From Actinomycetota bacterium (GTDB lineage Bacteria > Actinomycetota > Actinomycetes > S36-B12 > CAIYMF01): a stretch of DNA of 64,000 nucleotides. Positions 50,361-55,897 of this stretch are shown piece after piece. The notes beneath the pieces were generated by a model. It did not search any database and had not been told where the DNA came from. It saw only the letters and a list, made by a program, of their open reading frames with translations. The DNA lies in the NCBI GenBank assembly GCA_026393115.1, contig JAPLAU010000008.1:62001-126000 (forward strand), given 5' to 3'. A program made the translations under genes and the position numbers. Position 1 is the stretch's first letter. Each line of letters opens with the position of its first letter.

Positions 50361-52124
50361 GTGGCCGCACGAAATCTCATCAGTGCCGAGGACATCAGCA
50401 AGTCCTATGGCCACGAACCGCTGTTGGCCAAGGTGTCACTCGGGGTCAGTGAAGCTGAGCGCGTTGGCATTGTCGGGCGCAACGGTGCCGGTAAAAGCAC
50501 ACTGTTGCGACTCCTTGCGCGTGAGGAATCCGCCGATAGTGGGCGCGTCACCATGGGCAATGACGTGCGTCTGGGGTTTCTTCGCCAGGCCGATAGTTTC
50601 CCGCCCGAGGTCACCGTGCGCGAGGCCGTCATTGGTGATCAGGAAGCGCACGAGTGGGCGACCGAAGCGCGCATTCGCGATGTGCTGGAAGGCCTTCTCG
50701 GGGGCCACGACGATGCTGTCCTCGCGCGCACCCTCGGCACAATGTCGGGTGGGGAACGACGTCGGGTCGATCTCGCCCGTTTGCTGATCTCTGACCTTGA
50801 CGTGTTGCTCCTTGATGAGCCCACCAACCACCTTGACGTCGAAGTGATTGCCTGGCTCGCCGACCACCTCAAGTCACGCAACCGACTCAGCGTGCTGGTT
50901 GTCACTCACGATCGCTGGTTCCTTGATGAAGTTTGCAGCGACATGTGGGAAGTCGTCGACGGCGGAGTGGAAGAATACGAGGGCGGCTACAGCGCCTACG
51001 TGCTGTCGAAGGCCGAGCGTGAACGTCAGGCCGCTGTCACCGAACAACGCCGCAGCATGTTGATTCGCAAGGAACTTGCGTGGCTTCGGCGTGGGCCGCC
51101 CGCGCGCACGACCAAGCCCAAATTCCGTATCGACGCTGCAAACGCGTTAATCGAGGCCGAGCCGCCTCCTCGCAACAACGTCGAGTTGATGTCGTTCGCG
51201 GGAGCGCGTCTGGGTAAGACCGTGTACGAGGTCAAAGATGCTGAGTTGAGTATCGGCGAGAAGGTGCTCGTCGACAGGTTCACACTGTCGATCGGTCCGG
51301 GTGAGCGACTGGGCATTCTCGGTTCGAATGGTGTGGGCAAGACGACGCTGATGCGCCTGCTCGTGGGCGAAGTGTCGGCGACGCGGGGCAAGGTCGTCAC
51401 CGGGGTGACGGTCAAGCCGGCCTACTTGTCGCAAGCGCTCGAAGAACTCGATCCGACCTGGCGTGTTCTCGAAGCAGTGGAACAAGTGGCAATGCGTGTT
51501 GATCTCGGCAAGGGTCGCGAGCTCAGTGCCTCGCAATTGTGTGAACGTCTTGGCTTCGGATCGGGCGCACAGTGGACGCCAGTCGGTGATCTGTCGGGTG
51601 GTGAGCGACGTCGACTGCAACTCACGCGTCTGCTGATGGCCGGGCCGAATGTTCTGCTGCTCGATGAGCCCACCAACGATTTTGATGTCGAGACGCTCTC
51701 GGCACTGGAAGACCTGCTGGATGGATTCGCCGGTTCGATCATCGTGATCTCCCACGACCGCTACTTCCTCGAGCGTGTGTGTGATGACTTCGTCTGTCTC
51801 CTCGGTGATCAGGCTGTTCTTTCGCTCACCGGTGGGGTCGAGCAGTACCTCACTCTGCTATCCGGCACGCGCGGTGCCCAGTCGGGCGGGACCGCCGAGC
51901 CGGCGCCGGTGCGCAGCGCGGCAACTGAGCGCGAGACACGCAAGGAGATGCAGCGGCTCGAGCGGCTGATCGCGCGGCTTGACAAAGCCGAGGCGCAGTT
52001 GCACGTGAAAATCGCTGACGTGGCAGCAGATTTCGAAGCCGCCCGCGAACTCAACGACCAATTGCGGGTGCTGCGGGTCGAACGTGAAGCGGCCGAAGAA
52101 GCGTGGCTCCAACTCGCTGAGTAG
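50361..52124 (+). CDS. ABC-F family ATPase
   Basis: The protein has 587 residues with two ABC domains and no membrane helix. Walker A motifs are GRNGAGKST (39-47) and GSNGVGKTT (about 319-327). Signatures are TMSGGERRRVDLARL and DLSGGERRRLQLTRL, and Walker B sites follow (LLLDEPTNHLDVE and LLLDEPTNDFDVE). The C-terminal 65 residues form a charged coiled coil like that of Uup. ABC-F proteins act on ribosomes. The GTG has AAAGGA. Confidence 0.92.
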   Translation: MAARNLISAEDISKSYGHEPLLAKVSLGVSEAERVGIVGRNGAGKSTLLRLLAREESADSGRVTMGNDVRLGFLRQADSFPPEVTVREAVIGDQEAHEWATEARIRDVLEGLLGGHDDAVLARTLGTMSGGERRRVDLARLLISDLDVLLLDEPTNHLDVEVIAWLADHLKSRNRLSVLVVTHDRWFLDEVCSDMWEVVDGGVEEYEGGYSAYVLSKAERERQAAVTEQRRSMLIRKELAWLRRGPPARTTKPKFRIDAANALIEAEPPPRNNVELMSFAGARLGKTVYEVKDAELSIGEKVLVDRFTLSIGPGERLGILGSNGVGKTTLMRLLVGEVSATRGKVVTGVTVKPAYLSQALEELDPTWRVLEAVEQVAMRVDLGKGRELSASQLCERLGFGSGAQWTPVGDLSGGERRRLQLTRLLMAGPNVLLLDEPTNDFDVETLSALEDLLDGFAGSIIVISHDRYFLERVCDDFVCLLGDQAVLSLTGGVEQYLTLLSGTRGAQSGGTAEPAPVRSAATERETRKEMQRLERLIARLDKAEAQLHVKIADVAADFEAARELNDQLRVLRVEREAAEEAWLQLAE

Positions 52125-52215: not shown

Positions 52216-53826
52216 TTGACTACCGCCTCGTACGGCGACGATGTCTCTCCGGTCTCCGACGTCAGAGGACTACGGCACGGTGCGGGTGCGCGACTGGCGA
52301 CGGCGCTCGCCTTCACCTCCATTCGACCCATTGTGGGTTTCGGTGGAACGGCACTGCTCATCAGCTACGCAGGTCTGAGTGCGTGGCAAGCGCTGGTGGC
52401 ACTGCTTGTCGTATTACTTCTCGTGGCCGTCGTTTTTGGAGCACTTGCTTCGCGGTGGCCGATTGAGGGCGGAGTTCACGGCTGGGCGCGGCAACTCACC
52501 GGGGCACGTGGTGGATTCTTCACCGGGTGGCTCTACCTGTGCTCGTACGTGCTGTTCATGGCGTCACTCGCGTACTTCGACGTGCAGCGAATCTTCTTCT
52601 TGTTCGGTCTCGAGCCTCCCACGGTGCTGATTGCGAGTATCTGTACCGCCGCCGTGCTGCTGCTGGCAACAGTCGCTAACACTTTGACCCGAGCGTGGAT
52701 CAAAGTCATCGCACTCATTGCTGTGGCTGCCTCACTCATTGGCTGCATCGGGTACTCGGTCGCGCTGATCGCGGGGCACTCCAGCCGTGGGTTCGGCGAC
52801 ATTCTGAGCTCAGGCGGTTCCGATGCGGGCGGTGCATGGCTCAGTGGTCCATTCCTTGTTGCTCTGGCCTGGGCATCGGCGTTCGCATTCCGTGGTTTTG
52901 AGATTCCCAGCGACATCTCGGAGGAAATGGACGACGCACCACGCGTGGTACCTCGGGCAATGTTGACGGGCTTGATTGTCGGCGGCGTGCTGACCATCAT
53001 CGCCGGTATTTCCATCGCACTGGTGGTGCCGGCAGCTCCAGAGGTGAGTGACGAACTGGCGAGCAACCCCTACGCAGCATCCGTCGGCGTGACGGTGGAT
53101 GTGGCGATGGGTTCTGGTGCGGCGAAATTTCTCGCGTTGCTCTTGGTGATTGCGACGTTCGCTGCGATCGCTGTGTGCCAACTCGCAGCGTCACGCACGA
53201 TCTGGACGATGGCGCGTGACCGCGAACTGCCGGGCAGTTCGTGGCTTGTTCAACTGTCGCCGCGCCGACGACTTCCTCGCAACGCCATCATCGTCGCCGG
53301 CGTGATTGGTGTGATCCTCCCTTTCCTGATTTTTGAAATCAAGACCGCCTACGTGCTGCAAGGTGCGAGTGCGACGCCATTGTTGATTGCTTTCCTGATT
53401 CCGCTCGTGGGGCTGCTGCGCTCTCGCATCCGAAGCTCGTGGGAGTCAGGGCCATTTGGTCTAGGCCGTTGGATGACGCCTGTTGCAGTAATCGCGGCCC
53501 TTGCACTACTCGGACTGGCGCTCAATGCCCTGTGGCCCCGCGAGCAGTTGTACGGAAGCGGTCGCGGACTCTGGGGGCCGAGCGCAATCACTGTGGTAAT
53601 CGTGATTCTGGGCCTAGGCGTGATGGCCTGGGCCTATCGCGATGGCGGCGTCCACGTGCGGCATCACGGGCACGTCGAGCGTGACCTCAACGAACGGGTG
53701 CGCCTTGGGCACGCGGGTACCTGCGTGTCATGCCACCGCGATTTGGCGGCGGGCGATGAGGCTTTCTGGAACCCCGAGGCACACGTGGTCATCTGCGTTG
53801 CCTGCGAAGAAGTTGTGGTTGAGTAG
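52216..53826 (+). CDS. APC-family amino-acid permease with C-terminal Cys/His domain
   Basis: The protein has 536 residues. Residues 30-460 form 12-13 helices of the APC superfamily (IVGFGGTALLISYAGLSAW at helix 1). The last 70 residues are hydrophilic and look like a separate small domain: His-rich HVRHHGHVERD, then CVSCHRDL and CVAC near the end, a CxxC pair set 25 residues apart. Such a zinc-ribbon-like tail on a transporter is unusual. The TTG start is supported by GAGGAG, and TAGGGT (52173-52178) lies upstream. Its substrate is unknown. Confidence 0.85.
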   Translation: MTTASYGDDVSPVSDVRGLRHGAGARLATALAFTSIRPIVGFGGTALLISYAGLSAWQALVALLVVLLLVAVVFGALASRWPIEGGVHGWARQLTGARGGFFTGWLYLCSYVLFMASLAYFDVQRIFFLFGLEPPTVLIASICTAAVLLLATVANTLTRAWIKVIALIAVAASLIGCIGYSVALIAGHSSRGFGDILSSGGSDAGGAWLSGPFLVALAWASAFAFRGFEIPSDISEEMDDAPRVVPRAMLTGLIVGGVLTIIAGISIALVVPAAPEVSDELASNPYAASVGVTVDVAMGSGAAKFLALLLVIATFAAIAVCQLAASRTIWTMARDRELPGSSWLVQLSPRRRLPRNAIIVAGVIGVILPFLIFEIKTAYVLQGASATPLLIAFLIPLVGLLRSRIRSSWESGPFGLGRWMTPVAVIAALALLGLALNALWPREQLYGSGRGLWGPSAITVVIVILGLGVMAWAYRDGGVHVRHHGHVERDLNERVRLGHAGTCVSCHRDLAAGDEAFWNPEAHVVICVACEEVVVE

Positions 53827-53834
53827 AGGCTCAC

Positions 53835-53896
53835 TTGGCTACTGTGTGTACGTTGTGCTACACTCCGAGTAACCGATAAGCCGGTTGCCCGGAGTG
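53835..53896 (+). promoter_or_regulatory. Strong promoter with dyad symmetry around the start point
   Basis: A -35 TTGGCT (53835-53840), an 18-base spacer and an extended -10 TGCTACACT (53856-53864) form a complete promoter. A 36-base imperfect dyad overlaps it: CACTCCG (53861-53867) with CGGAGTG (53890-53896), and AACCG (53871-53875) with CGGTT (53882-53886). This may be an operator or the first hairpin of the RNA. Confidence 0.6.
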
Positions 53897-54046
53897 ACGT
53901 TGCGACCTCCGGTTTCCTCGCAGTCAAAGCTACTTGCAGCCAATCGCCGTATACCAGCTTTCGATCGCAGCAACAGTGCGGCATTACCGCTCCCATTCGT
54001 CTGACGAATGAGTTGCAGCTGGTAAGGCCGTTGAAGGGAGAACCTC

Positions 54047-54082
54047 ATGTACGAGGTCGACTACGGCCCCTGGGACGACTAG
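54047..54082 (+). CDS. Micro-ORF, 11 residues, unknown
   Basis: ATG at 54047 to TAG at 54080-54082 encodes MYEVDYGPWDD. GGGAG ends 6 nt before the ATG, an ideal ribosome binding site. It could be a leader peptide, an acidic peptide product or a chance ORF in a regulatory RNA. No downstream plus-strand gene exists for almost 2.9 kb, so it is not a leader of an adjacent operon. The peptide is unlike any family I know. Confidence 0.4.
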   Translation: MYEVDYGPWDD

Positions 54083-54108
54083 GAGCCACGGCATCACGCC
54101 GAACTAGA

Positions 54109-54149
54109 ACGAAGGGTGGAATGGGCATCGCGCCTGTTCCACCCTTCGT
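54109..54149. terminator. Very strong bidirectional terminator hairpin
   Basis: A perfect 13-base stem (54109-54121 with 54137-54149, arms ACGAAGGGTGGAA and TTCCACCCTTCGT) continues inward with TGGGC/GCCTG around a five-base loop. It stands right after the micro-ORF and just before the stop of the convergent MBL gene, so it can serve both transcripts. Confidence 0.7.
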
Positions 54150-54152
54150 ACG

Positions 54153-55016
54153 TTATTCGCCGTTTCTCGTTGCCGCTGCACGCGCCTGATTGGCTTCGTG
54201 CAACTCGCGCATGTCAGGAAAATCGACGCGCGGATCGTCAGAATCACCGCGTGTGATGAGGTCATCGAGGTAGCGCCGATCGGCGTCGATGCGCGACAGT
54301 GCGTCGGCTGCGGGAGTTCCGTGACCGGGGATGAGTAACGAGCATCGGGCCGCGACGCCGGCGATGCGGTCAAGCCCCTGCAGGTACGCACCAAGATCGG
54401 GGTTGGCTTCATCAGGCATCGGCAGTTCGATATCGCTACCGAGGTCGCCGCAGACGAGAACGCCGAGGTCGACCACTTCAACCGCGACGTGAGCCGGCGC
54501 ATGAGCATCGTGTTCGTGTAGCACGATGTCGCGTCCGCGCCACGGGAGCGCGTAGGCAGGTGGCAGGTCGCGCAGCACATGAGATGCAGCGGGGTCGGGT
54601 ACGTCGTCGGGTGCGCGTCCACCGGGAATCTCAACGAGTCGGCCGGCGATGTCAATGACCTCCGGTGGCAGGTCGCCGATGAGAGGAGCAAGAAACTCCT
54701 CGCGACGATTCTCATGCGCCCATGCGGTCCAGCGTGATGCGTAGCGTGGAGTAGGAGTGTCGGTGTGCGCATCAAGGTCGGGGTGCCACAGCACATGGTC
54801 GTAGTGAACATGGGTGGCCAATCCAAGACCGCACGTGAGGCCGAGCGCCCGCATTCCCGCCGGAATCGACGCGAGTTCGTCGACGTCCCAGTTTGGATCG
54901 ATGACGACGCAGGCACCGTCGTCGCCGCGAATCACCGTGCTCAACGCTGCATAGCGTCGTGAAGTTTGCACCCAGACGTGAGGTGCCACTTCAACCAGCG
55001 GGGAAGGAGAAGTCAT
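54153..55016 (-). CDS. Metallo-beta-lactamase-fold hydrolase
   Basis: The protein has 287 residues from the ATG at 55016. Metal-binding THVHYDH (HxHxDH) lies near residue 75, and later blocks HEHDAHAPAHVAVEVVD and LLIPGHGTPA add the other ligands. Family members include glyoxalase II-like and quorum-quenching enzymes; the substrate here is unknown. The frame is also open to a GTG at 55052 that would overlap rmlD; the ATG is my preference because family proteins start near VEVAPHVWV. It follows rmlD in the same direction. Confidence 0.82.
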   Translation of the reverse strand: MTSPSPLVEVAPHVWVQTSRRYAALSTVIRGDDGACVVIDPNWDVDELASIPAGMRALGLTCGLGLATHVHYDHVLWHPDLDAHTDTPTPRYASRWTAWAHENRREEFLAPLIGDLPPEVIDIAGRLVEIPGGRAPDDVPDPAASHVLRDLPPAYALPWRGRDIVLHEHDAHAPAHVAVEVVDLGVLVCGDLGSDIELPMPDEANPDLGAYLQGLDRIAGVAARCSLLIPGHGTPAADALSRIDADRRYLDDLITRGDSDDPRVDFPDMRELHEANQARAAATRNGE

Positions 55017-55021
55017 CGCGC

Positions 55022-55897
55022 TCAACTTTCTGGGGAATTGAAGGAGGGCCACGCAACTTCGAACGCCGAGTTCCAGTCACGCATCGGACCCAGACCGTGG
55101 AGTGCCCATGCGTCGTGACCGAGTACCGAGTACGCGGGTCGAGGTGCCGGACGCGGGAACTTGTCGGTGGTCGTGGGAAGTACCCGTGCGGTGTCGGCGC
55201 CGATCATGGTGAAGATGCGTTGCGTGAAATCGAACCACGTCGTGGCACCCGACGCCGTCGCGTGGAAGGTGCCGGCGGGAACTCCGCGCACGAGTGCGAG
55301 CGTGAGTCGCGTTGCGAGATCGTGTGACCATGTCGGCTGTCCGTGTTGGTCGCTCACCACTTCGAGGGTGTCGCGCTGCTGTTCAAGGGCAATCATCGTG
55401 CGCACGAAATTCGGCCCGTGCGCTCCGTACAACCACGCAGTGCGAAGAATGTGAGAGCGATCGGAATTGATACGGCGAACCGCCTGCTCGCCAGCGGCCT
55501 TCGTGCGACCGTAGGCCGTGCGGGGTGCCATCGCGGCGTCTTCGGGGTAGGGCGTTGTTGCCGTACCGTCAAAGACGTAGTCGGTCGAAATGTGCGTCAT
55601 CCATGCGCCCGTGCGCGCGCATGCGCGGGCGATGTGTTCAGGACCAACCGCGTTCACGGCGAAGGCAAGGTCTTCGTTTTCCTCCGCTGCATCAACGGCG
55701 GTATACGCCGCGCAGTTCACGACGATGTCAAAGCCGTTCACCGCAGCGTCGACGGACGCCGCATTGGTGATGTCGATGTCGGGAAGGTCGAGTCCGACAA
55801 CATCGCGATCGTGAAGAACGGTCATCAGGTCGGTTCCGAGCATCCCGCGGTGACCGATAACAAGCCATCGACCATCAACCTGCGCAGGAGGTGTCAT
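55022..55897 (-). CDS. rmlD: dTDP-4-dehydrorhamnose reductase
   Basis: The protein has 291 residues. The NADPH-binding loop is VIGHRGMLGTDLM near the N-terminus, and the catalytic pattern YGRTKAAGE (YxxxK) is present near 145. This enzyme makes dTDP-L-rhamnose. I chose the ATG at 55897 because its ATG overlaps the rmlB stop (ATGA), rather than a longer frame to 55957. The gene is in the same operon as rmlB. Confidence 0.9.
   Translation of the reverse strand: MTPPAQVDGRWLVIGHRGMLGTDLMTVLHDRDVVGLDLPDIDITNAASVDAAVNGFDIVVNCAAYTAVDAAEENEDLAFAVNAVGPEHIARACARTGAWMTHISTDYVFDGTATTPYPEDAAMAPRTAYGRTKAAGEQAVRRINSDRSHILRTAWLYGAHGPNFVRTMIALEQQRDTLEVVSDQHGQPTWSHDLATRLTLALVRGVPAGTFHATASGATTWFDFTQRIFTMIGADTARVLPTTTDKFPRPAPRPAYSVLGHDAWALHGLGPMRDWNSAFEVAWPSFNSPES

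Follow-up and report, generated by a model that had tools for sequence, protein, structure and literature searches.

The window, a 64,000-nt stretch of actinomycete DNA, contains between a permease gene and a convergent MBL-fold gene a small unit with the frame MYEVDYGPWDD, and the comparative evidence described below indicates that this 11-codon frame is a real, very short gene. The reading that we favor, with reasonable though far from full confidence, is that of a stand-alone, monocistronic gene for a micropeptide which acts in trans via its C-terminus. The proposed action through a free C-terminus follows from the pattern of conservation: only the last seven residues are conserved, and the N-terminus varies in both length and sequence.

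Layout of the unit

All elements described in the earlier note were found in the window sequence, between positions 53835 and 54149 (Table 1). An ABC-F-like ATPase gene (50361-52124) and an amino-acid permease gene (52216-53826) precede the unit, and on its 3′ side lie the MBL-fold gene (54153-55052, minus strand) and then rmlD/rfbB/rfbA-type genes. Downstream, no plus-strand gene with a family match begins before 56979, so that the plus strand is free of such genes for about 2.9 kb. At its C-terminus the plus-strand permease extends beyond the Pfam permease match, which ends at residue 452 of 536, and this additional part resembles a zinc ribbon in having two CxxC motifs (CVSC...CVAC).

Table 1. 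Features of the unit, in window coordinates
Feature	Positions	Strand	Details or basis
Sigma-70-type promoter	53835..53864	+	TTGGCT 53835-53840, 18-nt spacer, extended TG, TACACT 53859-53864
Conserved 5′-terminal hairpin 1 (GTAACC / GGTTGC), then CCGG	53869..53888	+	Alignment of relatives, covariance model R1
Small second 5′ helix (CGG...CCG) plus following segment	53889..53916	+	89.8% of cells paired in alignment; window copy imperfect
Stem upstream of RBS (ACCAGCT / AGCTGGT) enclosing hairpin 53994-54010	53953..54023	+	Inverted repeats I5 and I6
Shine-Dalgarno sequence GAAGGGAG	54033..54040	+	Anti-SD duplex −12.4 kcal/mol
Micro-ORF MYEVDYGPWDD	54047..54082	+	11 codons and TAG; ATG at 54047; comparative evidence
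Small hairpin CCTGG-GACGA-CTAGG including the stop codon	54069..54083	+	Fold vs. shuffled downstream sequence
Terminator-like hairpin, 18-nt arms 54109-54126 / 54132-54149, 13 bp perfect	54109..54149	.	Inverted repeat

Some of these signals are weaker or narrower than had been thought. What had been called a full promoter does have the described hexamers, spacing, and extended TG, but it agrees with the consensus at 8 of 12 positions and for this reason stayed below the cut-off of the promoter scanner and was left uncalled. TACACT-like boxes are found in relatives at an equal distance from the 5′ hairpin (e.g., L036, L075, L086, L088, and L113). The 36-base dyad placed over the start point is likewise present (53861-53896, 15-nt arms, 87% complementary), and the relatives narrow the transcribed hairpin to hairpin 1 inside it. 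The terminator stem proved as perfect as described, yet no T-run follows it in the window; it separates the unit from the convergent MBL gene. In most relatives a GC-rich hairpin could be read, by eye and unscored, within about 100 nt 3′ of the ORF.

A conserved family of micro-ORFs

In BLASTN comparisons with 60 relatives the matches piled up on the ORF, each of them being a tiny ORF with the same ending. The family has the form M-x(0-4)-D-[Y/F/L]-G-P-W-D-D-stop and is present in a single copy per genome. Nearly all members have 9-12 codons (24 loci with nine codons and ATG, 15 with 11), the shortest form being MNDYGPWDD, and L060, readable as 14 codons, is the sole possible longer member. 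The encoded peptide is acidic, with D-[Y/F]-G-P-W-D-D at the C-terminus as its fixed part.

Among 395 genomes of the class, 26 had a single match each to a degenerate pattern, [YF]GPWDD followed by a stop codon; the reversed pattern matched none. One of the 26 (G256), with TGG in place of the stop codon, was rejected as a chance match. Scanning 84,980 species with the pattern gave 51 loci, about 49 of them in Actinomycetes; the counts are uncorrected by tree and the loci are not independent events. The carriers belong to Nanopelagicales, Frankiales, Sporichthyaceae, Motilibacter, and MAGs labeled Pseudonocardiales, with organism names taken from the MAG titles. The two other loci, in Desulfosporosinus (L070) and Sphingobacterium (L083), were discarded as chance since the start codon/RBS was missing at the right place. 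Other GPWDD strings in relatives lay inside longer ORFs and did not recur.

Because the search pattern fixes the peptide, codon counts in the collection-wide pattern set are biased. A profile of the RBS and ORF without fixed residues (R2) was run on the same 395 genomes of the class and matched 28 of them at E<1e-8, the next match standing at 5e-5. Three members absent from the pattern matches were added in this way, two reading MDDIDLGPWDD and one MNDDDFGPWHD. As these diverged forms were found without requiring the exact peptide, we rejected the idea that the ending is the tail of a larger protein.

In the 28-genome R2 set, which is less biased than the pattern set yet has seeds from the same pattern, pairwise differences at codon positions 1, 2, and 3 numbered 28, 24, and 88. 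The changes were mostly synonymous, with Gly and Pro codons varying at the wobble base only; the Y/F/L swaps were conservative, and the sole other residue change was one D-to-H. Within four lineages the last 24 nt of the ORF (the core) were 90-96% identical, compared with 71-76% for the RBS/start region and mostly 50-62% for the other flanks, the random level being about 49%. All 52 members tested have a start codon and a Shine-Dalgarno sequence at proper spacing, and the mean energy of the SD duplex was −10.0 kcal/mol (n=52) vs. −5.3 kcal/mol for other called genes at the same loci, whose start sites are uncertain. The near-ideal ribosome binding site and the ORF claimed for the window are thus upheld, the first by its duplex energy and the second by strong conservation in relatives. 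The micro-ORF is far beyond chance on this comparative evidence, and the substitution pattern argues that its frame is under protein-level purifying selection. Part of the selection may act on the RNA, since conservation extends to the hairpins at the 5′ end and at the stop codon.

Within the class sample all nine genomes of the window's family and all eight Sporichthyaceae carry the micro-ORF, and most other families were without it. Genus g4 of the window's family showed no micro-ORF in its two assemblies, which are only 78-85% complete. About 270 genomes of other classes of the phylum gave no case besides the window. The exact pattern had no match among IMG/VR viral contigs, and a phage or mobile origin was rejected accordingly. 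Several copies (G001:C217, G011:C206, G081:C320, and G161:C231) are situated less than about 350 bases from the end of a contig, a hint of hard-to-assemble sequence near the unit in metagenomes.

The family is undescribed in the searchable literature, in agreement with the earlier note: the string 'GPWDD' was not found in a full-text search of 5.39 million papers, and Rfam 15 gave no match above the gathering score in the window or in 20 relatives (144 kb). The best sub-threshold Rfam matches were at chance level and mainly to eukaryotic families. No tRNA or tmRNA was found, and the ORF differs from a tmRNA tag in having a start codon and a Shine-Dalgarno sequence; both candidates were rejected.

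RNA structure around the micro-ORF

The whole 285-nt transcript folds with a z of −4.6. The middle part without the two end hairpins, for which a three-way junction had been proposed, reached a z of −1.64, and 12 of 200 shuffles folded as well. The excess stability therefore sits in the end hairpins, and the junction, being unexceptional, is unproven and not supported as the key structure.

The 5′ hairpin, in turn, came out of the suggested covariance analysis as conserved with compensatory changes. Counterparts of hairpin 1 (GCARCC-CRCCNAGN-GGYTGC, then CCGG) stand right behind the −10 box in 27 loci. In an alignment of 21 sequences 98% of the cells of helix 1 were paired and double changes affected 4 of the 6 pairs, a signal exceeding that of both shuffles and slides. 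A covariance model of the 5′ domain, R1, which holds no peptide sequence, matched the window at 53865-53916 (E 6.5e-4, 37 bits) and 12 of the 395 genomes. Eleven of the 12 carry the micro-ORF, 10 of these 11 loci being training members of R1; the twelfth, in a genome of another family (G220, L132), has no micro-ORF and was rejected as chance.

These observations bear on a dual-function RNA, in which the 5′ hairpin domain (loop approximately CRCCNAGN, flanks CCGG / CCCGGUCC) would serve as a base-pairing or protein-binding sRNA and the peptide would be a second product. Such a role would agree with the covariation, with the ORF accompanying nearly all matches of a peptide-free model, with the stability of the whole transcript, and with a second hairpin upstream of the RBS in some lineages. 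Against it, the SigR-promoter Frankiales and the Nanopelagicales genus g3 keep the peptide without hairpin 1, identity of the flanks outside the hairpin is near random, and the R1 matches are mostly the model's own training loci. We regard the dual-function RNA as unlikely, though it carries more weight than the other alternatives.

In other lineages the 5′ end carries another hairpin or no recognizable one, which makes hairpin 1 a lineage feature and the peptide the constant part. As the 5′ architecture differs by lineage and the peptide stays unchanged, the unit is to be seen primarily as a micropeptide gene and not as the structured RNA unit formerly described. It may have a second function at the RNA level. 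When conservation of the peptide was set against that of the stems, the peptide proved strongly conserved, and the refuting outcome, with neither conserved, did not occur. Six SigR-promoter Frankiales (L071, L074, L091, L093, L104, and L108) possess, in place of the CRCCNAGN hairpin, a different one at the 5′ end whose 8-nt loop is of the GGAANGAT type. A CGTCTCCGC...GCGTnGCAGACG stem upstream of the RBS is common to six relatives and shows some covariation; the window aligns poorly with it. In the minimum-energy fold of the window, 53911-53918 of the 5′ UTR (GGTTTCC) pairs with the SD region (54036-54044), so that translation of this copy might be structure-gated.

At the other end, the pairing of the ORF end with the sequence 3′ of the stop codon exceeds what shuffling of that sequence gives (mean z −1.6 over 53 loci, p<0.1 in 58%), and the register of this hairpin varies between lineages. 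At L086 (GACGACTGAGCGCTCCGCGCTCGGT) and L088 (GGGACGACTAGTCCC) the ORF end and the post-stop sequence are tandemly duplicated, as if the stop-codon hairpin region were self-copying.

Nascent chains that are acidic and contain proline are linked to intrinsic ribosome destabilization. The unit could then be a sensor of ribosome arrest or termination, with the D-Y-G-P-W-D-D-stop chain and the stop hairpin stalling or destabilizing the ribosome and the fate of the transcript as output. The composition of the chain would suit such a role, as would the conserved residues abutting the stop codon, as in arrest peptides, and the pairing signal above shuffles. Yet most genomes offer no downstream gene to regulate, the hairpin shifts its register by lineage, and a ribosome at the stop codon would melt it; we consider a sensor improbable.

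Genomic context, promoters, and known systems

Clustering of the neighboring genes gave different genes per family, none common across families, and no functional theme. A convergent neighbor is frequent, about 60 nt downstream. In a handful of lineages a gene on the same strand follows at 100-300 nt (aspartate kinase in L092, L099, and L101; FMN oxidoreductase in genus g3), and no same-strand downstream gene was found conserved across families. Such genes, together with the short ORF and the hairpins, are what a leader peptide or attenuator of a neighboring gene would have in its favor. Since the neighbors differ between families and often converge, as in the window with its long plus-strand gap, the unit is not a leader, the earlier note having already argued that it is not simply one, and that explanation is largely refuted and barely retains any probability. 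The gene order and copy number indicate that the unit is autonomous and single-copy, which supports the self-contained transcription unit of the earlier note.

The same neighborhoods speak to whether the ORF encodes a RiPP precursor, whose very small core peptide would be processed by tailoring enzymes as in microcin C or the biarylitides. Its extreme shortness, fixed aromatics, and conserved C-terminus would be in keeping with this, and precursor genes this small exist (microcin C, 7 aa, PMC6495379; biarylitides, 5 aa, PMC13417212). However, known tiny precursors adjoin their enzymes, and the 377 called neighbors in 54 loci contained no P450 or genuine radical-SAM motif, the two kinds of motif searched for in the fetched neighborhoods, and no conserved neighbor. 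Of the motif matches among the neighbors, the three in C23 we take to be a methylamine-dehydrogenase-type Cys motif and not true radical-SAM; a further match lay at L075. One copy per genome across families is also unlike a patchy antibiotic cluster. With no linked genes, a RiPP precursor, like a leader, is disfavored, and we deem it very unlikely.

The mccA gene of microcin C stands in an operon with mccB and others, and its peptide ends in Asn. It resembles the unit in being tiny (7 codons), with a functional C-terminus and a short transcript (PMC6495379), and differs from it in that the unit has no linked maturation gene and ends in Asp-Asp. Biarylitide precursors (PMC13417212, PMC12951456) are likewise minimal genes with aromatic residues, but their five codons lie next to a P450 gene, of which no motif was seen near any of the 54 loci. 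Synteny with HAD-hydrolase and oxidoreductase genes is what identifies Ms1 RNA, likewise a single-copy intergenic RNA gene of actinobacteria, which has been described as non-coding (PMC9130861). The unit lacks that synteny, having permease and MBL-fold flanks, as well as an Rfam match. What is presumably a HAD-like ORF lies about 7 kb from the unit in the window and is not adjacent to it. Of a more general sort is the likeness to stand-alone bacterial microprotein genes and small mRNAs, which have their own promoter, a strong RBS, a tiny conserved ORF, and their own terminator and are missed by annotation. Compared with these, the present family stands at the extreme low end (9-12 codons), and what it conserves is a fixed motif at the C-terminus, directly before the stop codon; neither Rfam nor the full-text literature gave a named microprotein or RNA family matching the unit.

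SigH and SigR are ECF sigma factors of the thiol/heat stress type. Of about 51 loci, 12 carry the motif GGGAAY-N18/19-GTT upstream, between −146 and −228 relative to the conserved core, and 1 Mb of sequence from these loci contains 23 such sites altogether. GGGAAY was present at −260 to −130 in 19 of 49 loci vs. 3.5% expected. These upstream motifs fit the published SigR/SigH consensus, GGGAAT(G/C)-16 nt-(C/G)GTTG (PMC3489674), and about a quarter of the relatives would have such a promoter. The resemblance to SigH/SigR regulon genes (PMC3489674) extends to several lineages and not to the window, where the unit has no promoter of this type and a sigma-70 (housekeeping) one instead. Regulon membership thus appears lineage-specific; the micropeptide is probably stress-linked in several lineages, and this role is not extendable to the window copy, given its housekeeping-type promoter. 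In Motilibacter (L046, L077) the micro-ORF lies 116-118 nt behind a same-strand gene and lacks the 5′ hairpin. We take the upstream gene for a cold-shock-protein gene, and the micro-ORF may be read from the csp transcript.

For the favored micropeptide gene these data suggest the following course. Transcription would yield a small mRNA, in the window about 280 nt long, beginning at the 5′ hairpin, which would probably protect its end, offering a near-ideal ribosome binding site, and ending at the terminator. Translation would give an acidic peptide of 9-12 residues with a free D-[Y/F]-G-P-W-D-D C-terminus, which we infer to accumulate and to act in trans, docking its GPWDD-COOH tail in a conserved cytoplasmic protein, probably during stress. 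An enzyme, a chaperone, a protease, or a ribosome factor would be candidate partners. Whether the Actinomycetes possess here a new family of ultra-short free-standing genes (9-12 codons), encoding a stress-linked adaptor-like or signal-like peptide with an invariant GPWDD-COOH and no partner gene adjoining, we judge from sequence comparison to be an even question.

If translated, the family would, to our knowledge, be among the shortest free-standing conserved protein-coding genes in bacteria. Its members are far shorter than the length cut-offs used in genome annotation, yet the gene is near-universal in at least two families; its discovery shows that a search for shared ORF endings can reveal genes of this kind. 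As a defined peptide with a fixed C-terminal motif, it would allow its binding partner to be fished for directly.
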